NCBI GenBank assembly: GCA_947172415.1
Contig: OX359190.1
Coordinates: 186,001-250,000 of the forward strand
Reading direction: 5' to 3'
DNA length: 64,000 nt
Origin: Chondrosia reniformis
Taxonomy: Eukaryota; Porifera; Demospongiae; Chondrillida; Chondrillidae
Shown one piece after another: positions 22 through 59,208 of the stretch. Every line of letters starts with the position of its first letter. Positions within the stretch are counted from its first letter, which is position 1. Position numbers and translations under genes: made by a program. The notes under the pieces were generated by a model. It searched no databases. It had not been told where the DNA came from and saw only the letters and a list, made by a program, of their open reading frames with translations.

Positions 22-2202
22 ATGGCGGAGCTTCCAGCGGTCCCACTCATTCAGTCCAGCGAGCTTAGTCTCTCTTGTGTCGGTTGCGGAGAGAAAGTAA
101 AAGAGTTGAAATGTCTACCGTGTCTCCACTCGTTAGCTTTGTGCGAGAAGGTAGAATGTCGAGAGAAGATTCTCCATCGCAGCGTCTCCTGCAAGATTTG
201 CGAGGAAGTGTTCTCCTTGTCTCTCAAAAATCTTTCTGACCATCCGTTCGCTCTGAGGAAGGCTTTGAGCAACCAGTACCGGAAGGAAGGCGTCATCTGT
301 CAGGAGGAACACGAAGAAGAGAGATCGGCCGTAAGTTTCTGCTCGACTTGCGATGCGTTCATTTGTCAGGAATGCGTCGATCATCATGAAACTCGAAAAG
401 TCTTCAAGAAACACGAAATGAAGCCGTTGCAAGGAGTGCTTGAGCAAGGCGGTAAGAAAGAGGATTTGTTCAAATGCTCGAAACACAGTAAGAATTGCGA
501 ACTTTACTGTCACACTTGTGAAGAAATGATTTGTCACATTTGCTCTTCTATCGAACCGCATCGTTCCCACAAAGTATCGTACATTGACGATAAGCTGGGA
601 GAGTCCAACAAGACCACTCTGACACAGTGCCTATCATCCGTGAGGACTCAAAGGAAGGCAATGAGATCTGCTCTCCAAGAAGTGCAGGACAGCAAAGCTA
701 GTCTCCAACAGCAGTCTGAGAATGCGTTAGGAGAGATTGCTGAAATGAAGGAGCATCTGTTTGCCATGGTGACAGCCCGCTGTGATGGTCTTGCTGCTGA
801 AGTGAGGGAAGCAAAAGACAAGGGAAGAAGAGAACTTGAGAGACGCGAGAGAGAATTGAAAGTCAGTCTGAAGAAGCTTGATGCATTCCATTGCCTGTCA
901 GAAGAGATGAGTTTGAATGGAACAACAGAAGAGCAGTTATCAGTGACAAAGAAGATTGTCAGTCGCATGTCATCTCTCAGCAGCAGTATCTCAATGCCAA
1001 GAGCCTCCATCCAACCTTCTGTTGGTCTGAAGAGCTGTGATCGAGAAGAAGTGGAAAAGTACATCTCATCACTTGGAAGCATCCATCACAGTCCCCATCC
1101 ACCAAACTGCACTATGGAAGGAGTGAAAGTGAAGGATGACGTCGTTACCTGCAGAAGCTTTGCCAAGAAACCTCTTCACTTGAAGGTGATGACAAGAGAC
1201 GAGAGAGGCAATGAGTGCAGAGGAGGAGAGAAAGTGTTGGCTGTCCTTCATCCTGTGACAGCAGGTGTTCCTGTGTTTGGTAAAGTAGAAGACATGAGAG
1301 ATGGCACATACGAGGTGCAGTTTGCAAGTGTTCCATCAGAGAAGTGCCATCTGAGTGTGACTGTTGGAGGACATGATGTAGCAGGCAGTCCAGTAGAGGT
1401 GAAGGTAGTTGGTGTTAGCGTAATTACTGCAGTCAAGCAGGAGTTCAAGCATCCATCAGGTTCTCTGTATTTGGGTGTTGCAGTAGGTCCGGATGGTTTG
1501 CTATACTGTTCAGATAAGAGTGGACAAGTGACTATCCTAAACAGACAAGGTCAAGTTATAAGAAGCTTCAAAGTCAGGAATGGTGGTTCATTGATTGGAA
1601 TAGCACTAAGTAGAAGAGGGAATATGACTGTTAATGACTTTGATAATGGCTACATCAGTATCTACACAGCAGCTGGTGAATTTATAAGGCAGTTTGGAGG
1701 AAAAGGTAAAGATCAAGGTCAACTTAGTAATCCATATGGTGTGGCAGTTAACAAGGAGGGACATATATTTTTGGCAGATTGGGGAGGTCATTGTGTTTCT
1801 GTGTTTACAGAAAAAGGTACATTCCTGTACAGGTTTGGTCACGAGGGTAAAGCTGAAGGAGAATTTAATTACCCAAATTACATTCTCATAACACCTGATG
1901 ATTTGGTGTATGTGACAGATAAAGGAAATGATCGTATTCAAGTGTTTCAGCAGAATGGTCAGTTTATTAGGCAGTTTGGTAATGGCATTGTGAACTATCC
2001 ACGAGGTATAGCAATCACATATGATGGACATATAGTGGTAGCTTCATGGGGAGATAATAAGCTCATCATCTTCACACAAGATGGACAGTGTGTCCATGAA
2101 GTGACTGATATTGGATTGAAAGGTCCTTATGGTGTAGCAGTTGATAGTGATGGACTTATTTACATAGCAGATAGTAATAACAGTAGAGTAGTAGTACTTT
2201 GA
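22..2202 (+). CDS. TRIM-NHL protein, array copy 1 (intronless)
   Basis: A 726-residue single-exon protein of the TRIM2/TRIM3/TRIM71 type. Order of domains: a RING-like zinc finger (about residues 20-66, with CVGC, CLPCLH and SCKIC clusters), B-box 1 (about 91-137), B-box 2 (about 150-190, CSKH...CHTC...CHIC...H..H), a coiled coil rich in E/K/Q (about 205-320), a filamin-type immunoglobulin repeat (about 350-460) and six NHL beta-propeller blades (about 475-726). Family members are usually cytoplasmic E3 ubiquitin ligases or RNA-binding regulators; which applies here is unknown. The start is the MAEL shared by the copies, just after a conserved GGCGAGGTCTGCAA leader. Blade loops read DKSG, DFDN, ADWGG, DKGND, SWGDN and DSNN, which differ from the sister copies. 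The C-terminal end SRVVVL is invariant in all seven. Confidence 0.93.
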   Translation: MAELPAVPLIQSSELSLSCVGCGEKVKELKCLPCLHSLALCEKVECREKILHRSVSCKICEEVFSLSLKNLSDHPFALRKALSNQYRKEGVICQEEHEEERSAVSFCSTCDAFICQECVDHHETRKVFKKHEMKPLQGVLEQGGKKEDLFKCSKHSKNCELYCHTCEEMICHICSSIEPHRSHKVSYIDDKLGESNKTTLTQCLSSVRTQRKAMRSALQEVQDSKASLQQQSENALGEIAEMKEHLFAMVTARCDGLAAEVREAKDKGRRELERRERELKVSLKKLDAFHCLSEEMSLNGTTEEQLSVTKKIVSRMSSLSSSISMPRASIQPSVGLKSCDREEVEKYISSLGSIHHSPHPPNCTMEGVKVKDDVVTCRSFAKKPLHLKVMTRDERGNECRGGEKVLAVLHPVTAGVPVFGKVEDMRDGTYEVQFASVPSEKCHLSVTVGGHDVAGSPVEVKVVGVSVITAVKQEFKHPSGSLYLGVAVGPDGLLYCSDKSGQVTILNRQGQVIRSFKVRNGGSLIGIALSRRGNMTVNDFDNGYISIYTAAGEFIRQFGGKGKDQGQLSNPYGVAVNKEGHIFLADWGGHCVSVFTEKGTFLYRFGHEGKAEGEFNYPNYILITPDDLVYVTDKGNDRIQVFQQNGQFIRQFGNGIVNYPRGIAITYDGHIVVASWGDNKLIIFTQDGQCVHEVTDIGLKGPYGVAVDSDGLIYIADSNNSRVVVL

Positions 2203-2725: not shown

Positions 2726-2894
2726 TCAGCCCAGCAGTCTAGTCTGGTTCTGCAGCCACTGGTAGGCCTTCATGTTCCCCTTCTTCCTCAGTAGAGGTCC
2801 CACCTGCTCCCAACACTTTGTGTGGTACTCATTCAACCACTCAATCTAAAGAGAGAGAAACTGTCAACACAGAACAGGTTGCATCTCCTCTCCT

Positions 2895-3060
2895 CCCAGC
2901 CACACCCCTTCCCATCCAGTCACACCCCTTCCCATCCAGCCACACCCCTTCCCATCCAGCCACACCCCTTCCCATCCAGCCACACCCCTTCCCATCCAGC
3001 CACACCCCTTCCATCCAGCCACACCCCTTCCAATCCAGCCACACCCCTTCCCATCCTTGC
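2895..3060. repeat. 20-bp minisatellite in last XPNPEP1 intron (unit A)
   Basis: About eight tandem copies of CCACACCCCTTCCCATCCAG within the last intron of the XPNPEP1 fragment. The same array occurs in the other four units with different copy numbers. Proline/histidine-rich open frames across it are repeat artefacts. Confidence 0.9.
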
Positions 3061-3764
3061 TTCTCTCACTCACTTCTAAAGGAGTCAGTAACTCTGGCAG
3101 GATCATCTTCTGCTGGTAGGGTACCATGGTAACGGGCTCCATTGTGAGGTACTGCTCATTCTTGTAGCGATGAGGAGTTGCAGCCTCCTCAATCAGCACC
3201 ACATTCTCGTGTCTGATACCAAAGCTACCGTCGTCATAGTAACCCGGCTCTGTGAGAGTAAGAGGAGACAAGCTAGACAATGCAGATGTCAGTGATCTGT
3301 TATACCGACCGTCTGAGAGGAACATTCCAGCAAGGAGTGGTCCCCGGGATGGACGAGAGTTGATACCACAGGGACCTTCATGCACATTGAGAAAATGGCC
3401 GACACCATGTCCTGTGCCATGCAGGTAGTTCAGACCTGCACTCCATAGAGGAGCTCGTGCCAGCACTTCAATGCGATGGCCATCAGTCTTGCTGGGGAAG
3501 ACGGCAGTAGACAGAGCAATGTGACCCTTTAGCACTCGAGTGAAGCACTCCTATATGGGACAGTATAGACCACAGGGCTCATACAGCTCACAGCTCATAA
3601 TTGAAGGGTTTTACCCTTTGAAACTGTGTTGGTGACCCAAAATGTACAGTTCTAGTCACATCAGTTGTTCCATCCCAGTACTGAGCACCCGAGTCCACCA
3701 GGTACATCTCATCGGAGCAGAGCTTACGGTCAGTGGCAGGAGTGGGACTGCAGAGAGAAAGAGG

Positions 3765-4889: not shown

Positions 4890-5241
4890 ATCTCCTCCTC
4901 TTCCTCTTCCTCCACTCTTAGAGTAGACCTTTCTGTCTCGTTCTCCACAAAATTTTCACTCAACACATCATCAGCAGTACCTACAGACATGAGAGATGAC
5001 AGATTTTATGGTTGTCATGGAAACTGTACAACCAAACATTAACAACATATTCACTGAGGGGATTCGAGAATGTTCTCAAAGAGTACAATATTAACCAAAT
5101 TGGAACAGTGAGTGACTTTTAACAAAAAGTGAAACAATATATTACAATTATTACTACTTTGCAGTTGTTAACTGGACAAAGGCCCTTAGTGTAATTTTTA
5201 TACAAATGCTTCTTTCTGAACATGAAGGACAGAGTATTTGG
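4890..5241. other. Insertion of unknown origin in XPNPEP1 fragment
   Basis: About 350 bp with no counterpart in the complete XPNPEP1 (there the alignment passes from about 31030 to 31050). On the minus strand it opens with an acidic reading frame ending in a run of glutamates. On the plus strand 5043-5105 reads as an exon-like peptide (TYSLRGFENVLKEYNINQIG) followed by a good donor GTGAGT. I do not recognise the source gene. Confidence 0.4.
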
Positions 5242-5277
5242 TTCAGCAACCCAATGCATACCAAATACACACTGTAA

Positions 5278-6344: not shown

Positions 6345-6747
6345 CACATGACAATTATCACAACACAAACCAGTAAATAGACTCATTCTTCAGTTAATTG
6401 TAAACTTCTAAACTTCAAAGTATTCTTAAATAAAAGTGGTACAAGTGAAATTATGTTATGAATGTCCATTGGTATAGCTAAATATACAAAACCATGTACT
6501 AAAATCGATCCTACATGCATAGATCAAGGGATAACCCCTTTTTGGAAGGAAATCTTAAATACAAATTAAAATAAATTGCTGAGTCTAAATACACTATATA
6601 ATATATAGCTACAAATCGATCTATAGATTGCTACATAAACCATAAAGTACCAAAATAGTAACAACTGAACTGATTACTAAAATTAGACAAACAACGGACA
6701 GATTGAATAAACATTTACCAAATACAGCAACTAGGCGAGGTCTGCAA
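6345..6747 (+). promoter_or_regulatory. MDH1B-TRIM spacer with conserved TRIM upstream cassette
   Basis: The proximal ~130 bp (about 6613-6747) is nearly identical in front of all six TRIM genes whose upstream is visible. It contains ATAGATTGCTACATAAACC, AAAGTACCAAAATAGTAAC and the leader GCAACTAGGCGAGGTCTGCA. The distal part is AT-rich and has no gene. I infer a core promoter plus 5' UTR that travels with each TRIM gene. Confidence 0.6.
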
Positions 6748-8934
6748 ATGGCGGAGCTTCCAGCGGTTCCACCCCTTCAGTCCAGCGAGTCTAGTCTCTC
6801 TTGTGTCGGTTGCGGAGAGAAAGTAGAAGAGTTGAAATGTCTACCGTGTCTCCACTCGTTAGCTTTGTGCGAAAAGGTAGAATGTCGAGAGAAGATTCTC
6901 CATCGCAGCGTCTCCTGCCAGATTTGCGAGGAAGTGTTCTCCTTGTCTCTCAAGGATCTTTCTGACCATCCGTTCGCTCTGAGGAAGGCTTTGAGCAACC
7001 AGTACCGGAAGGAAGGCGTCGTCTGTCAGGAGGAACACGAAGAAGAGAGATCGGCCGTAAGTTTCTGCTCGACTTGCGATGCGTTCATTTGCCAGGAATG
7101 CGTCGATCTTCATAAAACTCGAAAAGTCTTCAAGAAACACGAAATGAAGCCGTTGCAAAGAGTGTTTGAGCAAGGCGGTAAGAAAGAGGATTTGTTCAAA
7201 TGCTCGAAACACAGTAAGAATTGCGAACTTTACTGTCACACTTGTAAAGAAATGATTTGTCACATTTGCTCTTCTATCGAACCGCATCGTTCCCACAAAG
7301 TGTCGTACATTGACGATAAGCTGGGAGAGTCGAACAAGACCACTCTGACGCAGTGCCTTTCATCCGTGAGGACTCAAAGGAAGGCAATCAGATCTGCTCT
7401 CCAAGAAGTGCAGGACAGCAAAGCTAGTCTTCAACAGCAGTCTGAGAATGCGTTAGGAGAGATTGCTGGAATGAAGGAGAATCTGTTTGCCATGGTGACA
7501 GTCCGCTGTGATGGTCTTGCTGCTGAAGTGAGGGAAGCAGAAGACAAGGGAAGAAGAGAACTTGAGAGACGCGAGAGAGAATTGAAGGTCAGTCTGAAGA
7601 AGCTTGATGCATTCCATTGCCTGTCAGAAGAGATGAGTTTGAATGGAACAACAGAAGAGCAGTTATCAGTGACAAAGAAGATTGTCAGTCGCATGTCATC
7701 TCTCAGCAGCAGTATCTCAATGCCAAGAGCCTCCATCCAACCTCCTGTTGGTCTGAAGAGCTGTGATCGAGAAGAAGTGGAAAAGTACATCTCATCACTT
7801 GGAAGCATCCATCACAGTCCCCATCCACCAAACTGCACTATGGAGGGAGTGGAATTTAAGGATAACGTCATTACCTGCAGAATGAGACCTTGGATAAAGA
7901 AACCTCTTCACTTTAAGGTGAAGACACGAGACGAGAGAGGCAATGAGTGCAGAGGAGGAGAGAAAGTGTTGGCTGTCCTTCGTCCTGTGACAGCAGGTGT
8001 TCCTGTGTTTGGTGAAGTAGCAGACATGAGAGATGGCACATATGAGGTGCAGTTTGCGAGTGTTCCATCAGAGAAGTGCCATCTGAGTGTGACTGTTGGA
8101 GGACATGATGTAGCAGGCAGTCCAGTAGAGGTAAGGGTAGTTGGTGGTAGCGTAATTACTGCAGTCAAGCAGGAGTTCAAGCATCCATCAGGTTCTGGGT
8201 ATTTGGATGTTGCAGTAGGTCCGGATGGTTTGCTATACTGTTCAGATAACAGTGGACAAGTGACTATCCTAAACAGACAAGGTCAAGTTATAAGAAGCTT
8301 CAAAGTCAAGAATAGTGCTATATTGTTTGGAATAGCACTAAGTAGAACAGGGAATGTGATAGTTAGTGACCATGATAATGGCTACATCAGTATCTACACA
8401 GCAGCTGGTGAATTTATAAGGCAGTTTGGAGGAAGAGGTAAAGATCAAGGTCAACTTAGTAATCCACGTGGTTTGGCAGTTAACAAGGAAGGACATATAT
8501 TTGTGGCAGAGTGTGGAGGTCATTGTGTTTCTGTGTTTACAGAAGAAGGTACATTCCTGTACAGGTTTGGTCACAAGGGTAAAGCTGAAGGAGAGTTTAA
8601 TTGCCCAAGTTACATTTTCATAACACCTGATGATTTGGTGTATGTCATAGATGGTGATAATAATCACATTCAAGTGTTTCAGCAGAATGGTCAGTTTATT
8701 AGGCAGTTTGGTAATGGCATTGTGGAGGGTCCACAAGGTATAGCAGTCACAAGTGATGGACATATAGTGGTCGCTTCATATAGTGCTAATAAGCTCAGCA
8801 TCTTCACACAAGATGGACATTGTGTCCATGAAGTGACTGATATTGGATTGAATGGTCCTGTTGGTGTAGCAGTTGATAGTAATGGACTTATTTACATAGC
8901 AGATTTTGATAACAGTAGAGTAGTAGTACTTTGA
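6748..8934 (+). CDS. TRIM-NHL protein, array copy 2
   Basis: A 728-residue intronless paralogue with the same RING-like, two B-box, coiled-coil, filamin and six-blade NHL layout. The frame stays open upstream to 6703, but the MAEL start at 6748 is the one shared with the sisters. Differences from copy 1: the filamin insert reads MRPWIKK in place of SFAKK; B-box 1 has VDLHKTRK; blade loops read DNSG, DHDN, AECGG, DGDNN, SYSAN and DFDN; pre-strand positions read NPRG, NCPSY, EGPQG and NGPVG. Framework residues are almost unchanged. The gene follows the truncated MDH1B of unit A by ~400 bp. Confidence 0.93.
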   Translation: MAELPAVPPLQSSESSLSCVGCGEKVEELKCLPCLHSLALCEKVECREKILHRSVSCQICEEVFSLSLKDLSDHPFALRKALSNQYRKEGVVCQEEHEEERSAVSFCSTCDAFICQECVDLHKTRKVFKKHEMKPLQRVFEQGGKKEDLFKCSKHSKNCELYCHTCKEMICHICSSIEPHRSHKVSYIDDKLGESNKTTLTQCLSSVRTQRKAIRSALQEVQDSKASLQQQSENALGEIAGMKENLFAMVTVRCDGLAAEVREAEDKGRRELERRERELKVSLKKLDAFHCLSEEMSLNGTTEEQLSVTKKIVSRMSSLSSSISMPRASIQPPVGLKSCDREEVEKYISSLGSIHHSPHPPNCTMEGVEFKDNVITCRMRPWIKKPLHFKVKTRDERGNECRGGEKVLAVLRPVTAGVPVFGEVADMRDGTYEVQFASVPSEKCHLSVTVGGHDVAGSPVEVRVVGGSVITAVKQEFKHPSGSGYLDVAVGPDGLLYCSDNSGQVTILNRQGQVIRSFKVKNSAILFGIALSRTGNVIVSDHDNGYISIYTAAGEFIRQFGGRGKDQGQLSNPRGLAVNKEGHIFVAECGGHCVSVFTEEGTFLYRFGHKGKAEGEFNCPSYIFITPDDLVYVIDGDNNHIQVFQQNGQFIRQFGNGIVEGPQGIAVTSDGHIVVASYSANKLSIFTQDGHCVHEVTDIGLNGPVGVAVDSNGLIYIADFDNSRVVVL

Positions 8935-13908: not shown

Positions 13909-16125
13909 ATGGCGGAGCTTCCAGCGGTCCCACCCCTTCAGTCCAGCGAGCCTAGTCTCTCTTGTATCGGTTGCGGAGAGAAAGTAGAAGAGTTGAAATG
14001 TCTACCGTGTCTCCACTCGTTAGCTTTGTGCGAGAAGGTAGAATGTCGAGAGAAGATTCTCCATCGCAGCGTCTCCTGCCAGATTTGCAAGGAAGTGTTC
14101 TCCTTGTCTCTCAAGGATTTTTCTGACCATCCGTTCGCTCTGAGGAAGGCTTTGAGCAACCAGTACCGGAAGGAAGGCGTCATCTGTCAGGAGGAACACC
14201 AAGAAGAGAGATCGGCCGTAAGTTTCTGCTCGACTTGCGATGTGTTCATTTGCCAGGAATGCGTTGATCATCATAAAACTCGAAAAGTCTTGAAGAAACA
14301 CGAAATGAAGCCGTTGCAAGGAGTGTTTGAGCAAGGTGGAAAGAAAGAGGATTTGTTCAAATGCTCCAAACACAAAGAGAATTGCAAACTTTACTGTCAC
14401 ACTTGTGAAGAAATGATTTGTCACATTTGTCGATCGATCCAGCCTCACCATTCTCATGAAGTGTCGTACATTGACGATAAGCTGGGAGAGTCCAACAAGA
14501 CCACTCTGAAGCAGTGCCTTTCATCCGTGAGGACTCAAAGGAAGGCAATCAGATCTGCTCTCCAAGAAGTGCAGGACAGCAAAGCTAGTCTCCAACAGCA
14601 GTCTGAGAATGCGTTGGGAGAGATTGGTGGAATGAAGGAGCATCTGTTTGCCATGGTGACAGCCCGCTGTGATGGTCTTGCTGCTGAAGTGAGGAAAGCA
14701 GAAGACAAGGGAAGAAGAGAACTTGAGAGACGCGAGAGAGAATTGAAAGTCAGTCTGAAGAAGCTTGATGCATTCCATTGCCTGTCAGAAGAGATGAATT
14801 TGAATGGAACAACAGAAGAGCAGTTATCAGTGACAAAGAAGATTGTCAGTCGCATGTCATCTCTCAGCAGCAGTATCTCAATGCCAAGAGCCTCCATCCA
14901 ACCTTCTGTTGGTCTAAAGAGCTGTGATCGAGAAGAAGTGGAAAAGTACATCTCATCACTTGGAAGCATCCATCACAGTCCCCATCCACCAAACTGCACT
15001 ATGGAAGGAGTGGAAGTGAAAGATAATGTCATTACCTGCAGAATAAGACCTTGGATAAAGAAACCTCCTTTGCAATTGAAGGTTATGACAAGAGATGAGA
15101 GAGGCAATGAGTGCAGAGGTGGAGAGAAAGTGTTGGCTGTCCTTCGTCCTGTGACAGCAGGTGTTCCTGTGTTTGGTAAAGTAGCAGACATGAGAGATGG
15201 CACATATGAGGTGCAGTTTGCGAGTGTTCCATCAGAGAAGTGCCATCTGAGTGTGACTGTTGGAGGACATGATGTAGCAGGCAGTCCAGTAGAGGTGAAG
15301 ATAGTTGGTGGTAGCGTAATTACTGCAGTCAAGCAGGAGTTCAAGCATCCATCAGGTTCTCAGTATTTGGGTTTTCCATCAAATTCTGTGTATTTGGGTG
15401 TTGCAGTAGGTCCGGATGGTTTGCTATACTGTTCAGGTAACCGAGGACAAGTGACTATCCTAAACAGACAAGGTCAAGTTATAAGAAGCTTCAAAGTCAA
15501 GAATGGTGGTTCATTGTATGGAATAGCACTAAGTAGAACAGGGAAAGTAATAGTTAGTGACTATAGTAACAGCTACATCAGTATCTACACAGCAGCTGGT
15601 GAATTTGTAAGGCAGTTTGGAGGAAAAGGTAAAGATCAAGGTCAACTTAGTAATCCATATGGTGTGGCAGTTAACAAGGAGGGACATATATTTGTGGTAG
15701 AGTATGGAAGTCATTGTGTTTCTGTGTTTACAGAAAAAGGTACATTCCTGTACAGGTTTGGTCACAAGGGTAAAGCTGAAGGAGAGTTTAATTACCCTTG
15801 TTACATTCTCATAACACCTGATGATTTGGTGTATGTCACAGATGGTAATAATAATCGCATTCAAGTGTTTCAGCAGAATGGTCAGTTTATTAGGCAGTTT
15901 GGTAATGGCATTGTGAAGTATCCAGAAGGTATAGCAGTCACAAGTGATGGACATATAGTGGTAGCTTCATATAGTGCTAATAAGCTCAGCATCTTCACAC
16001 AAGATGGACAGTGTGTCCATGAAGTGACTGATATTGGATTGAATCGTCCTCGTGGTGTAGCAGTTGATAGGGATGGACTCATTTACATAGCAGATAGTAA
16101 TAACAGTAGAGTAGTAGTACTTTGA
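13909..16125 (+). CDS. TRIM-NHL protein, array copy 3 (longest)
   Basis: A 738-residue intronless paralogue. It is the longest of the seven because blade 1 carries a short internal duplication (QYLGFPSNSVYLGVAV, nt 15361-15405), which adds about ten residues at the propeller entrance. B-box 2 belongs to a second allele-like type, HKENCKLYCHTCEE followed by CRSIQPHHSHEV. Blade loops read GNRG, DYSN, VEYGS, DGNNN, SYSAN and DSNN; pre-strand positions read NPYG, NYPCY, KYPEG and NRPRG. The upstream cassette and leader are those of the sister genes. Confidence 0.93.
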   Translation: MAELPAVPPLQSSEPSLSCIGCGEKVEELKCLPCLHSLALCEKVECREKILHRSVSCQICKEVFSLSLKDFSDHPFALRKALSNQYRKEGVICQEEHQEERSAVSFCSTCDVFICQECVDHHKTRKVLKKHEMKPLQGVFEQGGKKEDLFKCSKHKENCKLYCHTCEEMICHICRSIQPHHSHEVSYIDDKLGESNKTTLKQCLSSVRTQRKAIRSALQEVQDSKASLQQQSENALGEIGGMKEHLFAMVTARCDGLAAEVRKAEDKGRRELERRERELKVSLKKLDAFHCLSEEMNLNGTTEEQLSVTKKIVSRMSSLSSSISMPRASIQPSVGLKSCDREEVEKYISSLGSIHHSPHPPNCTMEGVEVKDNVITCRIRPWIKKPPLQLKVMTRDERGNECRGGEKVLAVLRPVTAGVPVFGKVADMRDGTYEVQFASVPSEKCHLSVTVGGHDVAGSPVEVKIVGGSVITAVKQEFKHPSGSQYLGFPSNSVYLGVAVGPDGLLYCSGNRGQVTILNRQGQVIRSFKVKNGGSLYGIALSRTGKVIVSDYSNSYISIYTAAGEFVRQFGGKGKDQGQLSNPYGVAVNKEGHIFVVEYGSHCVSVFTEKGTFLYRFGHKGKAEGEFNYPCYILITPDDLVYVTDGNNNRIQVFQQNGQFIRQFGNGIVKYPEGIAVTSDGHIVVASYSANKLSIFTQDGQCVHEVTDIGLNRPRGVAVDRDGLIYIADSNNSRVVVL

Positions 16126-19985: not shown

Positions 19986-22166
19986 ATGGCGGAGCTTCCA
20001 GCGGTCCCACCCCTTCAGTCCAGCGAGCCTAGTCTCTCTTGTGTCGGTTGCGGAGAGAAAGTAGAAGAGTTGAAATGTCTACCGTGTCTCCACTCGTTAG
20101 CTTTGTGCGAAAAGGTAGAATGTCGAGAGAAGATTCTCCATCGCAGCGTCTCCTGCAAGATTTGCGAGGAAGTGTTCTCCTTGTCTCTCAAAGATCTTTC
20201 TGATCATCCGTTCGCTCTGAGGAAGGCTTTGAGCAACCAGTACCGGAAGGAAGGCGTCATCTGTCAGGAGGAACACGAAGAAGAGAGATCGGCCGTAAGT
20301 TTCTGTTCAAACTGTGATGCGTTCATTTGCCAGGAATGCGTCGATCATCATAAAACGCGTAAATTCTTAAAGAAACACGAAATGAAGCCGTTGCAAGGAG
20401 TGTTTGAGCAAGGCGGTAAGAAAGAGGATTTGTTCAAATGCTCGAAACACAGTAAGAATTGCGAACTTTACTGTCACACTTGTGAAGAAATGATTTGTCA
20501 CATTTGCTCTTCTATCGAACCACATCGTTCCCACAAAGTGTCGTACATTGACGATAAGCTGGGAGAGTCCAACAAGACCACTCTGACGCAGTGCCTTTCA
20601 TCCGTGAGGACTCAAAGGAAGGCAATCAGATCTGCTCTCCAAGAAGTGCAGGACAGCAAAGCTAGTCTCCAACAGCAGTCTGAGAATGCGTTAGGAGAGA
20701 TTGGTGGAATGAAGGAGCACCTGTTTGCCATGGTGACAGTCCGCTGTGATGGTCTTGCTGCTGAAGTGAGGGAAGCAGAAGACAAGGGAAGAAGAGAACT
20801 TGAGAGACGTGAGAGAGAATTGAAGGTCAGTCTGAAGAAGCTTGATGCATTCCATTGCCTGTCAGAAGATATGAGTTTGAATGGAACAACAGAAGAGCAG
20901 TTATCAGTGACAAAGAAGATTGTCAGTCGCATGTCATCTCTCAGCAGCAGTATCTCAATGCCAAGAGCCTCCATCCAACCTTCTGTTGGTCTGAAGAGCT
21001 GTGATCGAGAAGAAGTGGAAAAGTACATCTCATCACTTGGAGGCATCCATCACGGTCCCCATCCACCAAACTGCACTATGGAAGGAGTGGAAGTGAAGGA
21101 TAACGTCATTACCTGCAGAAGCTTTGCCAAGAAACCTCCTTTGCAGTTGAAGGTGAAAACAAGAGACGAGAGAGGCAATGAGTGCAGAGGAGGAGAGAAA
21201 GTGTTGGCTGTCCTTCGTCCTGTGACAGCAGGTGTTCCTGTGTTTGGTAAAGTAGCAGACATGAGAGATGGCACATATGAGGTGCAGTTTGCAAGTGTTC
21301 CATCAGAGAAGTGCCATCTGAGTGTGACTGTTGGAGGACATGATGTAGCAGGCAGTCCAGTAGAGGTGAAGGTAGTTGGTGGTAGCGTAATTACTGCAGT
21401 CAAGCAGGAGTTCAAGCATCCATCAGGTTTTCCGTATTTGGGTGTTGCAGTAGGTCAGGATGGTTTGCTTTACTGTTCAGATGTCAGTGGACAAGTGACT
21501 ATCCTCAACAGACAAGGTCAAGTTATAAGAAGTTTCAAAGTCAAGAATGGTGGTTGGTTGTATGGAATAGCACTAAGTAGAACAGGGAATGTGATAGTTA
21601 GTGACATTTTTAATGGCTACATCAGTATCTACACAGCAGCTGGTGAATTTGTAAGGCAGTTTGGAGGAGAAGGTAAAGATCAAGGTCAACTTAGTTTTCC
21701 ATGTGGTGTGGCAGTTAACAAGGAGGGACATATATTTGTGGCAGAGAAGAGAGGTCATTGTGTTTCTGTGTTTACAGAAGAAGGTACATTCCTGTACAGG
21801 ATTGGTCAATTTGGTGAAGCTAAAGGAGAGTTTAATTTCCCTAATTACATTCTCATAACACCTGATGATTTGGTGCATGTCACAGATGGTAATCATCGCA
21901 TTCAAGTGTTTCAGGAGAATGGTCAGTTTATTAGGCAGTTTGGTAATGGCATTGTACAGGGTCCAGAAGGTATAGCAGTCACAAGTGATGGACATATAGT
22001 GGTAACTTCATATGATGCTAATAAGTTCAGCATCTTCACACAAGATGGACAGTGTGTCCATGAAGTGACTGATATTGGATTGAATCCTCCTTCTGGTGTA
22101 GCAGTTGATAGTGATGGACTCATTTACATAGCAGATAGTAATAACAGTAGAGTAGTAGTACTTTGA
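19986..22166 (+). CDS. TRIM-NHL protein, array copy 4
   Basis: A 726-residue intronless paralogue. The filamin segment has the SFAKK form shared with copy 1, whereas the other five have MRPWIKK or IRPWIKK. B-box 1 carries FCSNCDAF and RKFLKKHE. Blade loops read DVSG, DIFN, AEKRG, DGNH (one residue short), SYDAN and DSNN; pre-strand positions read FPCG, NFPNY, QGPEG and NPPSG. One linker also differs (IGQFGEAKGEF for FGHKGKAEGEF). The combination of shared and private segments suggests conversion between copies. Confidence 0.93.
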   Translation: MAELPAVPPLQSSEPSLSCVGCGEKVEELKCLPCLHSLALCEKVECREKILHRSVSCKICEEVFSLSLKDLSDHPFALRKALSNQYRKEGVICQEEHEEERSAVSFCSNCDAFICQECVDHHKTRKFLKKHEMKPLQGVFEQGGKKEDLFKCSKHSKNCELYCHTCEEMICHICSSIEPHRSHKVSYIDDKLGESNKTTLTQCLSSVRTQRKAIRSALQEVQDSKASLQQQSENALGEIGGMKEHLFAMVTVRCDGLAAEVREAEDKGRRELERRERELKVSLKKLDAFHCLSEDMSLNGTTEEQLSVTKKIVSRMSSLSSSISMPRASIQPSVGLKSCDREEVEKYISSLGGIHHGPHPPNCTMEGVEVKDNVITCRSFAKKPPLQLKVKTRDERGNECRGGEKVLAVLRPVTAGVPVFGKVADMRDGTYEVQFASVPSEKCHLSVTVGGHDVAGSPVEVKVVGGSVITAVKQEFKHPSGFPYLGVAVGQDGLLYCSDVSGQVTILNRQGQVIRSFKVKNGGWLYGIALSRTGNVIVSDIFNGYISIYTAAGEFVRQFGGEGKDQGQLSFPCGVAVNKEGHIFVAEKRGHCVSVFTEEGTFLYRIGQFGEAKGEFNFPNYILITPDDLVHVTDGNHRIQVFQENGQFIRQFGNGIVQGPEGIAVTSDGHIVVTSYDANKFSIFTQDGQCVHEVTDIGLNPPSGVAVDSDGLIYIADSNNSRVVVL

Positions 22167-25941: not shown

Positions 25942-28128
25942 ATGGCGGAGCTTCCAGCGGTGCCACTCCTTCAGTCCAGCGAGCTCAGTCTCTCTTGTGT
26001 CGGTTGCGGAGAGAAAGTAAAAGAGTTGAAATGTCTACCGTGTCTCCACTCGTTAGCTTTGTGCGAGAAGGTAGAATGTCGAGAGAAGATTCTCCATCGC
26101 AGCGTCTCCTGCAAGATTTGCGAGGAAGTGTTCTCCTTGTCTCTCAAGGATCTTTCTGACCATCCGTTCGCTCTGAGGAAGGCTTTGAACAACCAGTACC
26201 GGAAGGAAGGCGTCATCTGTCAGGAGGAACACCAAGAAGAGAGATCGGCCATAAGTTTCTGCTCAAACTGTGATGCGTTCGTTTGCCAGGAATGCGTCGA
26301 TCTTCATAAAACCCGTAATGTCTTCAAGAAACACGAAATGAAGCCGTTGCAAAGAGTGTTTGAGCAAGGCGGTAAGAAAGAGGATTTGTTCAAATGCTCG
26401 AAACACAAAGAGAATTGCAAACTTTACTGTCACACTTGTGAAGAAATGATTTGTCACATTTGCTCTTCTATCGAACCACATCGTTCCCACAAAGTGTCGT
26501 ACATTGACGATAAGCTGGGAGAGTCCAACAAGACCACTCTGACGCAGTGCCTTTCATCCGTGAGGACTCAAAGGAAGGCAATCAGATCTGCTCTCCAAGA
26601 AGTGCAGGACAGCAAAGCTAGTCTCCAACAGCAGTCTGAGAATGCGTTGGGAGAGATTGCTGGAATGAAGGAGCATCTGTTTGCCATGGTGACAGCCCGC
26701 TGTGATGGTCTTGCTGCTGAAGTGAGGGAAGCAGAAGACAAGGGAAGAAGAGAACTTGAGAGACGCGAGAGAGAATTGAAGGTCAGTCTGAAGAAGCTTG
26801 ATGCATTCCATTGCCTGTCAGAAGAGATGAGTTTGAATGGAACAACAGAAGAGCAGTTATCAGTGACAAAGAAGATTGTCAGTCGCATGTCATCTCTCAG
26901 CAGGAGTATCTCAATGCCAAGAGCCTTCATCCAACCTTCTGTTGGTCTGAAGAGCTGTGATCGAGAAGAAGTGGAAAAGTACATTTCATCACTTGGAAGC
27001 ATCCATCACGGTCCCCATCCACCAAACTGCACTATGGAAGGAGTGAAAGTGAAGGATGACGTCATTACCTGCAGAATGAGACCTTGGATAAAGAAACCTC
27101 CTTTGCAATTTAAGGTGATGACAAGAGACGAGAGAGGCAATGAGTGCAGAGGAGGAGATAAAGTGTTGGCTGTCCTTTGTCCTGTGACAGCAGGTGTTCC
27201 TGTGTTTGGTAAAGTAGCAGACATGAGAGATGGCACATATGAGGTGCAGTTTGCAAGTGTTCCATCAGAGAAGTGCCATCTGAGTGTGACTGTTGGAGGA
27301 CATGATGTAGCAGGCAGTCCAGTAGAGGTGAAGGTAGTTGGTGGTAGCGTAATTACTGCAGTCAAGCAGGAGTTCAAGCATCCATTAGGTTCTCTGTATT
27401 ACGGTGTTGCAGTAGGTCCGGATGGTTTGCTATACTGTTCAGATGTCAGAGGACAAGTGACTATCCTAAACAGACAAGGTCAAGTTATAAGAAGCTTCAA
27501 AGTCAAGAATGGTGGTTGGTTGTTTGGAATAGCACTAAGTAGAACAGGGAATGTGATAGTTAGTGACAATAATAATGGCTACATCAGTATCTACACAGCA
27601 GCTGGTGAATTTGTAAGGCAGTTTGGAGGAAAAGGTGAAGATCAAGGTCAACTTAGTAATCCATGTGGTTTGGCAGTTAACAAGGAGGGACATATATTTG
27701 TAGTAGAGTGTGGAGGTCATTGTGTTTCTGTGTTTACAGAAGAAGGTGCATTCCTGTACAGGTTTGGTCACGAGGGTAAAGCTGAAGGAGAGTTTCATTG
27801 CCCAAATTTCATTCTCATAACACCTGATGATTTGGTGCATGTCACAGATAGTAATCATCGCATTCAAGTGTTTCAGCAGAATGGTCAGTTTATTAGACAG
27901 TTTGGTAATGGCATTGTGAAGGGTCCACAAGGTATAGCAGTCACAAGTGATGGACATATAGTGGTAGCTTCATATAGTGCTAATAAGCTCAGCATCTTCA
28001 CACAAGATGGACAGTGTGTCCATGAAGTGACTGATATTGGATTGAATCGTCCTCGTGGTGTAGCAGTTGATAGTGATGGACTCATTTACATAGCAGATCT
28101 TAATAACAGTAGAGTAGTAGTACTTTGA
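25942..28128 (+). CDS. TRIM-NHL protein, array copy 5
   Basis: A 728-residue intronless paralogue. B-box 2 is a chimera of the two types seen elsewhere: HKENCKLYCHTCEE (as in copy 3) followed by CSSIEPHRSHKV (as in copies 1, 2 and 4). Blade loops read DVRG, DNNN, VECGG, DSNH, SYSAN and DLNN; pre-strand positions read NPCG, HCPNF, KGPQG and NRPRG, the last shared with copy 3. This is the right-hand TRIM of the array, next to the only complete XPNPEP1. Confidence 0.93.
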   Translation: MAELPAVPLLQSSELSLSCVGCGEKVKELKCLPCLHSLALCEKVECREKILHRSVSCKICEEVFSLSLKDLSDHPFALRKALNNQYRKEGVICQEEHQEERSAISFCSNCDAFVCQECVDLHKTRNVFKKHEMKPLQRVFEQGGKKEDLFKCSKHKENCKLYCHTCEEMICHICSSIEPHRSHKVSYIDDKLGESNKTTLTQCLSSVRTQRKAIRSALQEVQDSKASLQQQSENALGEIAGMKEHLFAMVTARCDGLAAEVREAEDKGRRELERRERELKVSLKKLDAFHCLSEEMSLNGTTEEQLSVTKKIVSRMSSLSRSISMPRAFIQPSVGLKSCDREEVEKYISSLGSIHHGPHPPNCTMEGVKVKDDVITCRMRPWIKKPPLQFKVMTRDERGNECRGGDKVLAVLCPVTAGVPVFGKVADMRDGTYEVQFASVPSEKCHLSVTVGGHDVAGSPVEVKVVGGSVITAVKQEFKHPLGSLYYGVAVGPDGLLYCSDVRGQVTILNRQGQVIRSFKVKNGGWLFGIALSRTGNVIVSDNNNGYISIYTAAGEFVRQFGGKGEDQGQLSNPCGLAVNKEGHIFVVECGGHCVSVFTEEGAFLYRFGHEGKAEGEFHCPNFILITPDDLVHVTDSNHRIQVFQQNGQFIRQFGNGIVKGPQGIAVTSDGHIVVASYSANKLSIFTQDGQCVHEVTDIGLNRPRGVAVDSDGLIYIADLNNSRVVVL

Positions 28129-34193: not shown

Positions 34194-39397
<5,204 letters not shown>

Positions 39398-46825: not shown

Positions 46826-49000
46826 TCAAAGTACTACTACTCTACTGTTATTACGATCTGCTATGTAAATGAGTCCATCACTATCAACTGCTACACCACG
46901 AGGACCTTTCAATCCAATATCAGTCACTTCATGGACACACTGTCCATCTTGTGTGAAGATGCTGAGCTTATTAGCACCAAATGAAGCTACCACTATATGT
47001 CCATCACTTGTGACTGCTATACCTCGTGGATGCTTCACAATGCCTTTACCAAACTGCCTAATAAACTGACCATTCTGCTGAAACACTTGAATGCGATCAT
47101 TATTACCATCTGTGACATGCACCAAATCATCAGGTGTTATGAGAATGTAAGTTGGGCAATAAAACTCTCCTTCAGCTTCACCCCAGTGACCAAACCTGTA
47201 CAGGAATGCACCTTCTTCTGTAAACACAGAAACACAATGACCTCCCCACTCTGCCACAAATATATGTCCCTCCTTGTTAACTGCCACACCACTTCGCTTA
47301 CTAAGTTGACCTTCTCCTCCAAACTGCCTTACAAATTCACCAGCTGCTGTGTAGATACTGATGTAGCCATAATCAATGTTACTAACTATCACATTCCCTG
47401 TTCTACTTAGTGTTATTCCAAACAATCTACCACCATTCTTGACTTTGAAGCTTCTTATAACTTGACCTTGTCTGTTTAGGATAGTCACTTGTCCATTGTT
47501 ATCTGAACAGTATAGCAAACCATCCGGATCTACTGCAACACTGCAATAATGATAATCTGATGGATGCTTGAACTCCTGCTTGACTGCAGTAATTCCGCTA
47601 CCACCAACTACCTTCACCTCTACTGGACTGCCTGCTACATCATGTCCTCCAACAGTCACACTCAGATGGCACTTCTCTGATGGAACACTCGCAAACTGAA
47701 CCTCATATGTGCCATCTCTCATGTCTGCTACTTTACCAAACACAGGAACACCTGCTGTCACAGGACGAAGGACAGCCAACACTTTCTCTCCTCCTCTGCA
47801 CTCATTGCCTCTCTCGTCTCTTGTCATCACCTTAAAGTGAAGAGGTTTCTTTATCCAAGGTCTCATTCTGCAGGTAATGACATTATCCTTCACTTCCACT
47901 CCTTCCATAGTGCAGTTTGGTGGATGGGGACTGTGATGGATGCTTCCAAGTGATGAGATGTACTTTTCCACTTCTTCTCGATCACAGCTCTTCAGACCAA
48001 CAGAAGGTTGGATGGAGGCTCTTGGCATTGAGATACTGCTGCTGAGAGATGACATGCGACTGACAATCGTCTTTGTCACTGATAACTGCTCTTCTGTTGT
48101 TCCATTCAAACTCATCTCTTCTGACAGGCAATGGAATGCATCAAGCTTCTTCAGACTGACCTTCAATTCTCTCTCGCGTCTCTCAAGTTCTCTTCTTCCC
48201 TTATCTTCTGCTTCCCTCACTTCAGCAGCAAGACCATCACAGCGGGCTGTCATCATGGCAAACAGATGCTCCTTCATTCCAGCAATCTCTCCTAACGCAT
48301 TCTCAGACTGCTGTTGGAGACTAACTTTGCTGTCCTGCACTTCTTGGAGAGCAGATCTGATTGCCTTCCTTTGAGTCCTCACGGATGAAAGGCACTGCGT
48401 CAGAGTGGTCTTGTTGGACTTTCCCAGCTTATCGTCAATGTACGACACTTCATGAGAATGGTGAGGTTCGATCGATCGACAAATGTGACAAATCGTTTCT
48501 TCACAAGTGTGACAGTAAAGTTTGCAATTCTCTTTGTGTTTCGAGCATTTGAACAAATCCTCTTTCTTACCGCCTTGCTCAAACACTCTTTGCAACGGCT
48601 TCATTTCGTGTTTCTTTAAGAATTTACGCGTTTTATGATGATCGACACATTCCTGGCAAATGAACACATCGCAAGTCGAGCAGAAACTTACGGCCGATCT
48701 CTCTTCTTCGTGTTCCTCCTGACAGATGACGCCTTCCTCCCGGTACTGGTTGCTCAAAGCCTTCCTCAGAGCGAACGGATGGTCAGAAAGATCCTTAAGA
48801 GACAAGGAGAACACTTCTTCGCAAATCTTGCAGGAGACGCTGCGATGGAGAATCTTCTCTCGACATTCTACCTTCTCGCACAAAGCTAACGAGTGGAGAC
48901 ACGGTAGACATTTCAACTCTTTTACTTTCTCTCCGCAACCGACACAAGAGAGACTAAGCTCGCTGGACTGAATGAGTGGGACCGCTGGAAGCTCCGCCAT
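46826..49000 (-). CDS. TRIM-NHL protein, dispersed copy 6
   Basis: A 724-residue intronless paralogue outside the array, on the opposite strand. It has the same RING-like, B-box, coiled-coil, filamin and NHL order. B-box 2 is close to the copy 3 type (HKENCKLYCHTCEETICHIC then CRSIEPHHSHEV). A three-residue deletion before blade 3 (GGEGQLSKRSG where others have GKGKDQGQLSNP) makes it the shortest. Blade loops read DNNG, NIDY, AEWGG, DGNND, SFGAN and DRNN; blade 1 entry reads DYHYCSVAVDPDG, the most divergent of the set. The conserved upstream cassette is present at 49001-49140. Confidence 0.93.
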   Translation of the reverse strand: MAELPAVPLIQSSELSLSCVGCGEKVKELKCLPCLHSLALCEKVECREKILHRSVSCKICEEVFSLSLKDLSDHPFALRKALSNQYREEGVICQEEHEEERSAVSFCSTCDVFICQECVDHHKTRKFLKKHEMKPLQRVFEQGGKKEDLFKCSKHKENCKLYCHTCEETICHICRSIEPHHSHEVSYIDDKLGKSNKTTLTQCLSSVRTQRKAIRSALQEVQDSKVSLQQQSENALGEIAGMKEHLFAMMTARCDGLAAEVREAEDKGRRELERRERELKVSLKKLDAFHCLSEEMSLNGTTEEQLSVTKTIVSRMSSLSSSISMPRASIQPSVGLKSCDREEVEKYISSLGSIHHSPHPPNCTMEGVEVKDNVITCRMRPWIKKPLHFKVMTRDERGNECRGGEKVLAVLRPVTAGVPVFGKVADMRDGTYEVQFASVPSEKCHLSVTVGGHDVAGSPVEVKVVGGSGITAVKQEFKHPSDYHYCSVAVDPDGLLYCSDNNGQVTILNRQGQVIRSFKVKNGGRLFGITLSRTGNVIVSNIDYGYISIYTAAGEFVRQFGGEGQLSKRSGVAVNKEGHIFVAEWGGHCVSVFTEEGAFLYRFGHWGEAEGEFYCPTYILITPDDLVHVTDGNNDRIQVFQQNGQFIRQFGKGIVKHPRGIAVTSDGHIVVASFGANKLSIFTQDGQCVHEVTDIGLKGPRGVAVDSDGLIYIADRNNSRVVVL

Positions 49001-55132: not shown

Positions 55133-55205
55133 CTTTTTACTGCATTATATATACTGTATATTGAAAATTTATGTATCCGGATATTTTAGTAAAATTACGT
55201 AAAAC

Positions 55206-57027: not shown

Positions 57028-59208
57028 TCAAAGTACTACTACTCTACTGGTATTACAATCTGCTATGTAAATGAGTCCATCACTATCAACTGCTACACCA
57101 TAAGGACGATTCAATCCAATATCAGTCACTTCATGGACACACTGTCCATCTTGTGTGAAGATGCTGAGCTTAGCTCTCCATGAAGCTACCACTATATGTC
57201 CATCACTTGTGACTGCTATCCCTCGTGGATACTTCACAATGCCATTACCAAACTGCCTAATAAACTGACCATTCTGCTGAAACACTTGAATGCGATCATT
57301 ATCACCATCTGTGACATACACCAAATCATCAGGTGTTATGAGAATGTAATTTGGATAATTAAACTCTCCTTCAGCTTTACCCCCGTGACCAAACCTGTAC
57401 AGGAATGTACCTTCTTCTGTAAACACAGAAACACAATGACCTCCCTTCTCTGCCACAAATATATGTCCCTCCTTGTTAACTGCCAAACCAAATGGATTAC
57501 TAAGTTGACCTTGATCTTTACCTTTTCCTCTAAACTGCCTTACAAATTCACCAGCTGCTGTGTAGATACTGATGTAGCCATTATTAAAGTCACTAACTAT
57601 CACATTCCCTGTTCTACTTAGTGCTATTCCAAACAATCTACGACCATTCTTGACTTTGAAGCTTCTTATAACTTGACCTTGTCGGTTTAGGATAGTCACT
57701 TGTCCATTGTTATCTGAACAGTATAGCAAACCATCCGGACCTACTGCAACACCCAAATACTGAGAACCTGATGGATGCTTGAACTCCTGCTTGACTGCAG
57801 TAATTACGCTACCACCAACTACCTTTACCTCTATTGGACTGCCTGCTACATCATGTCCTCCAACAGTCACACTCAGATGGCACTTCTCTGATGGAACAAA
57901 CTGCACCTCATATGTGCCATCTCTCATGTCTGCTACTTCACCAAACACAGGAACACCTGCTGTCACAGGACGAAGGACAGCCAACACTCTCTCTCCTCCT
58001 CTGCACTCATTGCCTCTCTCGTCTCTTGTCATCACCTTCAACTGCAAAGGAGGTTTCTTTATCCAAGGTCTCATTCTGCAGGTAATGACGTTATCCTTCA
58101 CTTCCACTCCTTCCATAGTGCAGTTTGGTGGATGGGGACCGTGATGGATGCTTCCAAGTGATGAGATGTACTTTTCCACTTCTTCTCGATCACAGCTCTT
58201 CAGACCAACAGAAGGTTGGATGGAGGCTCTTGGCGTTGAGATACTGCTGCTGAGAGATGACATGCGACTGACAATCTTCTTTGTCACTGATAACTGCTCT
58301 TCTGTTGTTCCATTCAAACTCATCTCTTCGGACAGGCAATGGAATGCATCAAGCTTCTTCAGACTGACCTCCAATTCTCTCTCGCGTCTCTCAAGTTCTC
58401 TTCTTCCCTTGTCTTCTGCTTCCCTCACTACAGCAGCAAGACCATCACAGCGGGCTGTCACCATGGCAAACAGACGCTCCTTCATTCCAGCAATCTCTCC
58501 TAACGCATTCTCAGACTGCTGTTGGAGACTAGCTTTGCTGTCCTGCACTTCTTGGAGAGCAGATCTGATTGCCTTCCTTTGAGTCCTCACGGATGAAAGG
58601 CACTGCGTCAGAGTGGTCTTGTTCGACTCTCCCAGCTTATCGTCAACATACGACACTTTGTGGGAACGATGCGGTTCGATAGAAGAGCAAATGTGACAAA
58701 TCATTTCTTCACAAGTGTGACAGTAAAGTTTGCAATTCTCTTTGTGTTTCGAGCATTTGAACAAATCCTCTTTCTTACCGCCTTGCTCAAACACTCCTTG
58801 CAACGGCTTCATTTCGTGTTTCTTCAAGACTTTTCGAGTTTTATGGTGATCGACGCATTCCTGACAAATGAACGCATCGCAAGTCGAGCAGAAACTAACG
58901 GCCGATCTCTCTTCTTCGTGTTCCTCCTGACAGATGACGCCTTCCTTCCGGTACTGGTTGCTCAAAGCCTTCCTCAGAGCGAACGGATGGTCAGAAAGAT
59001 CCTTGAGAGACAAGGAGAACACTTCCTCGCAAATTTGGCAGGAGACGCTGCGATGGAGAATCTTGTCTCGACATTCTACCTTCTCACACAAAGCTAACGA
59101 GTGGAGACACGGTAGACATTTCAACTCTTCTACTTTCTCTCCGCAACCGACACAAGTGAGACTAAGCTTTAACTGAATGAGTGGGACCGCTGGATCAAGC
59201 TCCGCCAT
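57028..59208 (-). CDS. TRIM-NHL protein, dispersed copy 7
   Basis: A 726-residue intronless paralogue on the minus strand. Its N-terminus differs slightly (MAELDPAVPLIQLKLSLTC), and it lacks two residues in the filamin repeat (EVQFVPSEK where others have FASVPSEK). B-box 2 has the chimeric form also seen in copy 5. Blade loops read DNNG, DFNN, AEKGG, DGDND, SWRA (one residue short) and DCNT, the only copy with threonine in the last loop. Blade 3 entry reads NPFG. Upstream cassette present; follows the PEX12 copy 2 tail-to-tail. Confidence 0.93.
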   Translation of the reverse strand: MAELDPAVPLIQLKLSLTCVGCGEKVEELKCLPCLHSLALCEKVECRDKILHRSVSCQICEEVFSLSLKDLSDHPFALRKALSNQYRKEGVICQEEHEEERSAVSFCSTCDAFICQECVDHHKTRKVLKKHEMKPLQGVFEQGGKKEDLFKCSKHKENCKLYCHTCEEMICHICSSIEPHRSHKVSYVDDKLGESNKTTLTQCLSSVRTQRKAIRSALQEVQDSKASLQQQSENALGEIAGMKERLFAMVTARCDGLAAVVREAEDKGRRELERRERELEVSLKKLDAFHCLSEEMSLNGTTEEQLSVTKKIVSRMSSLSSSISTPRASIQPSVGLKSCDREEVEKYISSLGSIHHGPHPPNCTMEGVEVKDNVITCRMRPWIKKPPLQLKVMTRDERGNECRGGERVLAVLRPVTAGVPVFGEVADMRDGTYEVQFVPSEKCHLSVTVGGHDVAGSPIEVKVVGGSVITAVKQEFKHPSGSQYLGVAVGPDGLLYCSDNNGQVTILNRQGQVIRSFKVKNGRRLFGIALSRTGNVIVSDFNNGYISIYTAAGEFVRQFRGKGKDQGQLSNPFGLAVNKEGHIFVAEKGGHCVSVFTEEGTFLYRFGHGGKAEGEFNYPNYILITPDDLVYVTDGDNDRIQVFQQNGQFIRQFGNGIVKYPRGIAVTSDGHIVVASWRAKLSIFTQDGQCVHEVTDIGLNRPYGVAVDSDGLIYIADCNTSRVVVL

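Follow-up and report, generated by a model that had tools for sequence, protein, structure and literature searches.

The window analysed here, i.e., the whole stretch of 64,000 nucleotides at C2:186001-250000, lies on chromosome 2 (C2) of the demosponge Chondrosia reniformis (genome odChoReni1.1, PMC12181767; 117,379,552 bases in 15 contigs, where C9 is chromosome 9). The sequence-only reading had claimed seven TRIM-NHL genes within it, and all seven were found, each as a single open reading frame (ORF) encoding 724-738 amino acids (aa). The NHL propellers of these genes vary mainly at the same four positions in each of six blades, and this pattern is the subject of the present work. The genes and their relevant parts are as follows.

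22..2202, + strand: g1, TRIM-NHL gene, 726 aa; ORF with Pfam matches to NHL, filamin and B-box, and PDB sequence matches to the TRIM71, TRIM2 and BRAT NHL; order of parts: divergent RING-like region, B-boxes, presumed coiled coil, filamin, six NHL blades
1444..2199, + strand: NHL propeller of g1, residues 475-726; blade Gly/Tyr at residues 485, 526, 573, 620, 662 and 704
6613..6747, + strand: conserved 5' leader of g2, ~135 bp, defined by homology between copies
6748..8934, + strand: g2, TRIM-NHL gene, 728 aa; shared ATG at 6748 (the ORF list gives a TTG start at 6703)
13909..16125, + strand: g3, TRIM-NHL gene, 738 aa; insertion of nine residues before blade 1
19986..22166, + strand: g4, TRIM-NHL gene, 726 aa (ORF, alignment)
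25942..28128, + strand: g5, TRIM-NHL gene, 728 aa (ORF, alignment)
46826..49000, - strand: g6, TRIM-NHL gene, 724 aa (ORF, alignment)
57028..59208, - strand: g7, TRIM-NHL gene, 726 aa (ORF, alignment)

Judged by their domains, the proteins are of the TRIM-NHL type, combining B-box, filamin and six-bladed NHL regions. The NHL domain occupies the C-terminus (PF01436, E 3.5e-24 in Pfam), its six blade repeats were read from the alignment, and in g1 it matches chains of TRIM71, TRIM2 and BRAT in PDB. It is preceded by a filamin/ABP280 domain (PF00630 at 359-458, E 8.3e-10) and by B-box matches (PF00643 in two stretches, the best at 149-186; PF22586 at 92-132, under its cut-off). A coiled coil is presumed; in PDB, residues 151-323 match a TRIM3 chain and residues 46-320 a TRIM25 chain. 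No Pfam match to NACHT, WD40 or B30.2/SPRY was obtained for the TRIM-NHL protein.

The family extends far beyond the window. A tblastn search of the genome with g1 indicated 63 places, corresponding to at least 62 genes (61-100% identity; 56 of them at >=81%), which is a lower bound, as the best candidates were scored. The earlier notion of a family of seven thus holds for the genes of the window and not for the size of the family. The main array (C2:180,057-458,513, 280 kb) comprises 34 copies, 33 of which lack an internal stop and are open and full-length; other copies are found at C2:2.32-2.37, 3.19-3.25 and 7.45 Mb, as well as on C1, C4, C5, C6, C8, C12 and C14. Stop codons occur in two of the 63 places and a few places are partial. 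Among the best 150 of 612 candidates for PF01436, further NHL clusters were noticed on C9, C3, C14 and C7. For the codon alignment, 44 loci were read, of which L039, L044 and L047 (stop or truncation) and the diverged L049-L052 were excluded, leaving 37 intact copies (33 from the main array and four at 2.3 Mb), to which the values below refer unless another sample is named. Addition of 11 further copies (C1, C2 and C14) later gave 48 genes. Altogether, 55 of the 62 genes were retrieved, and seven lie outside the sample (C14:1116166, C8:4160507, C8:1538523, C5:5123584, C12:7342860, C6:498178-500421 and C8:6409073). From the chromosome 9 array, 16 of 20 listed places were sampled, with the NHL part only.

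Positions within blades were counted from the blade Gly (Y620 in blade 4) of the GVA-type strand, and offsets -3, -1, +14 and +15 of the six blades, 24 codons in total, are referred to below as the register. In g1 (+ strand), it comprises the following codons, given in the order -3, -1, +14, +15.

Blades 1-3: 482, 484, 499, 500; 523, 525, 540, 541; 570, 572, 587, 588
Blades 4-6: 617, 619, 634, 635; 659, 661, 676, 677; 701, 703, 718, 719

The mean number of nonsynonymous differences per codon pair was 1.04 at -3, 0.99 at -1, 1.08 at +14 and 0.92 at +15, compared with 0.35 at -4, 0.22 at +16 and 0.30 at +17; no other offset between -6 and +29 exceeds 0.14. The nonsynonymous (pN) and synonymous (pS) differences per site were 0.425 and 0.160 in the register, and 0.038 and 0.040 in the 228 other NHL codons (the framework); in the seven window genes the respective values were 0.448 and 0.100, and 0.043 and 0.034. 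Register codons make up 20 of the 24 most variable NHL codons, the remaining four being 608, 616, 637 and 721. When the offsets were shifted circularly and independently in each blade, not one of 20,000 trials attained the observed sum of 24.1 (shifted mean 5.5, maximum 16.9).

The residue series quoted in the sequence-only reading (blade 2 loop, blade 3 entry and blade 6 loop) match the alignment of the seven genes exactly, and the sites it had singled out (-2, -1 and +14 to +17) are more variable than other NHL codons, with pN 0.251 vs 0.046 in the 37 genes and 0.255 vs 0.053 in the seven. Its description of the sites needed several corrections. Of the residues before the blade Gly, -1 is variable, but -2 is a near-invariant Pro in blades 3-6 (37/37 in blades 4, 5 and 6; 34/37 in blade 3) standing between two variable codons, and the variable -3 had been overlooked. 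The loop after the strand end does vary, though chiefly at +14/+15 and more weakly at +16/+17. The pattern recurs in all six blades, as had been proposed, but not every site follows it, since Leu occupies -1 of blade 1 in 33/37 copies, Gly +14 of blade 4 in 29/37 and Gly +15 of blade 3 in 28/37.

As the four offsets had been picked after inspection of the data, they were checked in other gene sets. They rank as the top four in the window's seven genes and again in the 30 that lie outside it. In the diverged, independent array on chromosome 9 (16 genes), the top offsets are again -3 (0.94), +14 (0.66), -1 (0.47) and +15 (0.39), followed by 0.35 for the next one; the chance of drawing the same four out of 30 offsets is ~4e-5. 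In that array pN and pS amount to 0.263 and 0.118 in the register and to 0.050 and 0.070 in the framework, none of 20,000 shifts was as extreme, and the register holds 12 of the 20 most variable NHL-region codons. The 11 further copies from C1, C2 and C14 gave a pN of 0.483 in the register vs 0.050 outside it. The same tendency was visible in database proteins of ~40% identity (23 of P0074-P0098 aligned), with heterozygosity of 0.70 in the register vs 0.32.

The TRIM-NHL copies are fine mosaics, in which linkage is mostly lost within ~60 bp. Distances between copies in one segment of the gene show next to no correlation with those in another (Spearman -0.13 to 0.17, and 0.30 for the two halves of the NHL framework). 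Computed on 33 copies and 106 sites, r2 is 0.40 for sites 1-10 bp apart, 0.21 for 11-30, 0.06 for 31-60, 0.09 for 61-120 and ~0.04 beyond 250 bp, with 0.032 in shuffled data. Register haplotypes are nearly all different, i.e., 35 distinct ones in 37 genes and 46 in 48. Because segment histories are nearly uncorrelated and linkage disequilibrium is mostly lost over so short a distance, a single whole-gene tree is unsafe for site-wise estimation of the ratio of nonsynonymous to synonymous substitution rates (dN/dS).

Selection was therefore assessed with a count of events, i.e., the minimum number of mutations that can account for the set of different codons seen at a site, a number that whole-codon exchange between copies cannot inflate, and with a site-wise grid codon model run on 17 local trees of 34-47 codons (kappa fixed at 2, coarse rate grid). 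The register has 141 nonsynonymous (N) and 13 synonymous (S) events, N/S per site of 2.91 (binomial vs neutral, p 1.9e-5); the NHL framework has N 193.5 and S 70.5 (0.85), and residues 1-474 have N 309.2 and S 187.8 (0.47). The N:S ratios of register and framework differ (Fisher p 2.7e-6), and the bootstrap interval of pairwise pN/pS is 1.7-4.6 for the register. In the codon model, 22 of the 726 codons reached posterior support above 0.95 for beta > alpha, and 16 of these belong to the 24 of the register. The comparison of loop and framework dN/dS that the sequence-only reading had called for thus came out with higher values at the loop sites. Diversifying selection on the register is supported by both the recombination-tolerant counts and the site-wise model, and residues 1-474 are under purifying selection. 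The NHL framework is low in both N and S change, which points to homogenisation.

The copies also have sharp outer limits. Upstream of the gene, adjoining homology extends over a median of 141 bp (1332/1332 ordered pairs), and downstream over a median of 60 bp (1240/1332 ordered pairs), past which the flanks are mostly unalignable. Such bounds are consistent with gene-limited conversion or with dispersal of a 2.4-kb intronless unit. The latter could be taken further, as recent spread, by mobility or retroposition, of a unit made up of a 140-bp leader, an intronless CDS and ~60 bp downstream, which has no host role and whose diversity is incidental. An intronless, sharply bounded unit set in mostly non-homologous flanks on several chromosomes suits this idea, but 33 of the 34 array copies are open and full-length, and neither purifying selection on residues 1-474 nor diversifying selection on the propeller face is expected for junk copies, so that we consider it very improbable. 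As a separate observation, the 5' leader of the unit begins beside the motif TCGATCTATAGATTG (window 6620-6637 and similar sites), and in copy L020 the reverse complement of TCGATCTATAGATTG lies inside the leader, perhaps as a small mobile element.

In order to place the register on the fold, strands and loops (a-b, c-d, d-a and b-c) were named by offset according to the general layout of NHL domains. As far as faces can be assigned by offset, variability is not spread across both faces and the core of the propeller, since the loops assigned to the opposite face have pN of 0.017 (a-b) and 0.014 (c-d) vs 0.425 for the register, and the strands 0.019-0.036 (offset groups). This bears on the simplest alternative, in which constraint is relaxed and functionless mouth residues drift while the fold is conserved. 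A conserved framework is indeed expected in any propeller, and exposed loops drift in many families; however, drift gives a ratio of ~1, and N exceeds S at the register 2.7-2.9-fold per site with the interval given above. Moreover, little variation is seen in the loops assigned to the other face, although these are presumably just as exposed, and the Pro at -2 is retained between variable codons. Relaxed constraint, the least probable of the readings weighed here, was ruled out on the excess of N over S at the register together with the conserved loops of the assigned other face.

Fourteen residues of zebrafish LIN41 are described as touching RNA, the majority of them identical between species (PMC5908797). 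Counted in the same blade numbering, 13 of these 14 contacts fall at -3, -1, +14 or +15, with C563 at -4 (hypergeometric probability of at least 13/14 contacts in 24 of 282 residues, 4e-15). The surface position of the register is accordingly an inferred one, resting on register homology with the LIN41 contacts. The claim of a diversifying recognition family is well supported, because loop-site dN/dS is higher, the variable sites are not scattered (the opposite-face loops being conserved) and the offsets coincide with the RNA-contact offsets of LIN41.

The same coincidence would also suit a different function, namely that the copies are RNA-binding repressors of the LIN41/BRAT kind, each for another RNA motif, serving regulatory specialisation or the silencing of transposon or viral RNA and not protein recognition. 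LIN41, BRAT and Mei-P26 are reported to bind RNA with this side of their NHL domains, and Mei-P26 departs from BRAT at 11 of the 15 BRAT contacts (PMC9070667). A positively charged top is a mark of LIN41-type binders, and the mean charge of the register, +1.4 on a framework of -4.6, would suit RNA. However, register charge ranges from -2 to +4, and the leading residues are Gly, Asn, Tyr, Arg, Ser, Cys, Phe, Leu and Trp, not basic ones alone, so that RNA is not singled out as the ligand. Furthermore, a LIN41-type binder has conserved contact residues, and here those very offsets are the most variable; to our knowledge, host regulators are normally conserved and not hypervariable paralogue by paralogue. 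Loops on the same face are reported to bind proteins in WD40 propellers. We hold the repressor function to be rather unlikely, although it deserves more weight than drift or a mobile unit.

The reading that we prefer, to which we assign a probability of roughly 0.75, is that of an intracellular, E3 ubiquitin ligase-like (E3-like) TRIM-NHL family whose effector half is constant and whose recognition face is variable, the latter being diversified by positive selection and reshuffled between copies. The N-terminal part (residues 1-474) would be kept as the constant effector half by purifying selection, and the propeller framework would stay similar in all copies, probably through their exchange of sequence. 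By the contact register of LIN41, the 24 residues, with -3/-1 in the d-a loop and +14/+15 in the b-c turn, are predicted to ring one mouth of the propeller. Selection at these residues may act through binding of a putative ligand, and short-tract gene conversion or recombination, suggested by the mosaic structure, could shuffle register positions into new combinations. The mouth would most likely capture a fast-evolving target, i.e., a microbial or viral protein or RNA, which might then be brought to the RING for ubiquitylation; of the conceivable mechanisms, we regard this one as the most economical.

Several observations weigh against this reading or limit it. Regarding the effector half, RING-type ligands are near-invariant (C19, C22, C34, H36, C41, C46, C57 and C60; >=90% in 53 sequences), but no Pfam match to a RING finger was obtained for the TRIM-NHL protein despite these eight residues, and the spacing of the zinc ligands is unusual beside the common RING pattern. 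Variability is not confined to the register either: in the chromosome 9 array, eight of the top 20 NHL-region codons by variability fall elsewhere, and six other codons exceed 0.95 in the codon model (608 and 637 in the NHL, as well as 138, 156, 240 and 465). Conversely, register sites 484, 499, 500, 541, 588, 634 and 719 stay below 0.95, at site 523 alpha is far above beta, and the plain likelihood-ratio version yielded 12 codons with p < 0.05, among which were eight of the 24 register codons. For the framework, the pN/pS interval of 0.68-1.36 means that the ratio alone is no proof of constraint. The closest pair, L024/L031 (C2:315488 and 365353), has 10 residue differences with none in the register, and L009/L013 likewise differ outside the register and not inside it; recent duplicates can therefore retain a common register haplotype even as drift or conversion alters their other residues. 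Finally, S events per site climb toward the register, from 0.18 at 11-20 codons through 0.35, 0.43 and 0.49 to 0.69 at one codon and 0.85 within, and same-residue codon pairs differ more often than framework rates predict (362 observed vs 129 expected), hence locally raised mutation or deeper local genealogies probably contribute.

These synonymous data could be read as the trace of a process, acting in germline or soma, that hypermutates the loop codons by targeting or locally (deaminase-like or repeat-associated) and leaves selection a secondary part, and the rise of synonymous events and diversity over ~10 codons toward the register is what it would produce. The N:S of 141:13 nevertheless lies above the neutral expectation, and at several sites the third base is fixed while the first two vary (e.g., NNT at residue 659 in 37/37). 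Deeper local genealogies under balancing selection would yield the same synonymous decay: its range matches the length of linkage disequilibrium and is expected if register variants are long-lived among converting copies, although modest local hypermutation would look similar. Pure hypermutation is unlikely as the sole cause, and we regard a leading role for it as improbable.

With respect to known systems, the closest parallel to the sponge family as predicted here is the HNWD WD40 family of Podospora anserina. As far as the cited papers describe it, these NACHT-WD40 genes (het-d/het-e/het-r) have four positively selected codons per WD40 unit (7, 9, 25 and 27), in pairs flanking conserved residues and sitting in the d-a loop and the b-c turn atop the propeller, and members exchange sequence (PMC1805685, PMC2873952). 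In both families each blade of a beta-propeller carries four diversifying positions, one pair in the d-a loop and another in the b-c turn; in both, the first pair flanks a conserved residue (in the sponge, -3/-1 around the -2 Pro), and sequence exchange between members homogenises the rest. They differ in other respects. HNWD proteins are WD40-bearing NLRs of a fungus, whereas the sponge family is an NHL-bearing, TRIM E3-like family of an animal; their repeat number varies and repeats are exchanged within genes as well as between them, whereas sponge copies have six fixed blades with distinct frameworks; their second pair flanks a conserved residue, whereas +14/+15 are adjacent; and allorecognition is demonstrated for them, whereas the sponge family is known here from its sequence. 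Having no NACHT and no WD40, it is not an HNWD member and may only work like one.

Among TRIM proteins, teleost finTRIMs and primate TRIM5alpha are described as multigene TRIMs with positive selection in loops of the C-terminal ligand domain (PMC2657112), and thus resemble the sponge copies in joining a conserved RBCC (RING, B-box, coiled-coil) part to ligand-domain loops under positive selection. The ligand domain of finTRIMs is, however, B30.2 (PRY-SPRY) and not an NHL propeller, and trout finTRIMs were found as virus-induced transcripts, whereas the sponge copies are known from genes. TRIM71/LIN41, BRAT and Mei-P26 share the NHL propeller (with filamin in LIN41) and, in LIN41, contact offsets equal to the hypervariable ones; but LIN41 contacts are mostly identical across species while their sponge equivalents are the most variable, and these proteins are individual regulators, whereas the sponge family includes an array. 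The TRIM2/TRIM3/TRIM56-type proteins (subfamily C) belong to the same animal TRIM class, mostly with NHL repeats, but no such hypervariable array is described in the accessible part of PMC3503706. Literature searches, whose coverage excluded bioRxiv preprints and most subscription papers, returned no published description of such a family in sponges.

The repertoire may also differ between haplotypes. Among the 36 database proteins P0001-P0036 (81-90% identity to g1), 24 are identical to a retrieved locus. Of the remaining 12, seven come from contigs of 339,526 and 259,743 bases; these seven are 89-93% identical to their nearest counterparts among the 55 retrieved genes, no closer than ordinary nearest paralogues (median 92.5%). 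The seven primary-assembly genes outside the sample are 61-87% identical to g1, vs 87-90% for the seven database proteins. These proteins may belong to the alternate haplotype, as one has been deposited (GCA_947172445.1), and haplotype-specific register repertoires should be seen as a lead. A more far-reaching proposal, which we put forward tentatively and at slightly less than even odds, is that this sponge lineage runs an intracellular immune-receptor-like repertoire on a TRIM-NHL E3 scaffold, comprising ~60 genes with a 24-residue combinatorial face at the RNA/protein-binding mouth of the NHL, short-tract conversion and haplotypes too different to match alleles, independent of HNWD yet convergent on the same two loops per blade.

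It is an open question how animals without antibodies maintain a diverse recognition repertoire, and sponges live packed with microbes. If true, the preferred reading would add a new intracellular recognition system in an early-branching animal, with an E3-like family evolving fastest at the ligand mouth of its NHL. It would likewise be an animal counterpart of fungal HNWD and would suggest that two propeller families diversify the same structural positions. The sponge family also makes it testable whether the NHL face of animal TRIMs is a general evolvable binding platform beyond RNA.

Besides the TRIM-NHL genes, the window contains ORFs that recur upstream of the first array copies and reach 504 aa (5238-6344, 12012-13394, 18143-19657 and 24061-25561, + strand), and similar ones stand beside loci L009-L014. 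They gave no Pfam match above the cut-off; we take them to read like an MDH1B-type protein, and they are apparently carried along by a 6-kb tandem unit. A C-terminal piece of an M24 aminopeptidase (PF00557) at 2864-3535 (- strand), with repeats near 11.0, 17.2, 23.1 and 29.1 kb, is copied with the same unit (repeat D17). Dense minisatellites occupy 52845-54117, 52003-52647, 60836-62453, 63345-64000 and 38384-39134; the types present are a 59-bp unit x21.6, a 34-bp unit x19, a 169-bp unit x9.5 adjoining an inverted 169-bp array, and a 52-bp unit x14.9. Additionally, a 20-bp minisatellite, CCAGCCACACCCCTTCCCAT, lies downstream of each of the first five TRIM-NHL copies (2896-3056, 10753-11078, 17010-17273, 22675-23116 and 28988-29108).

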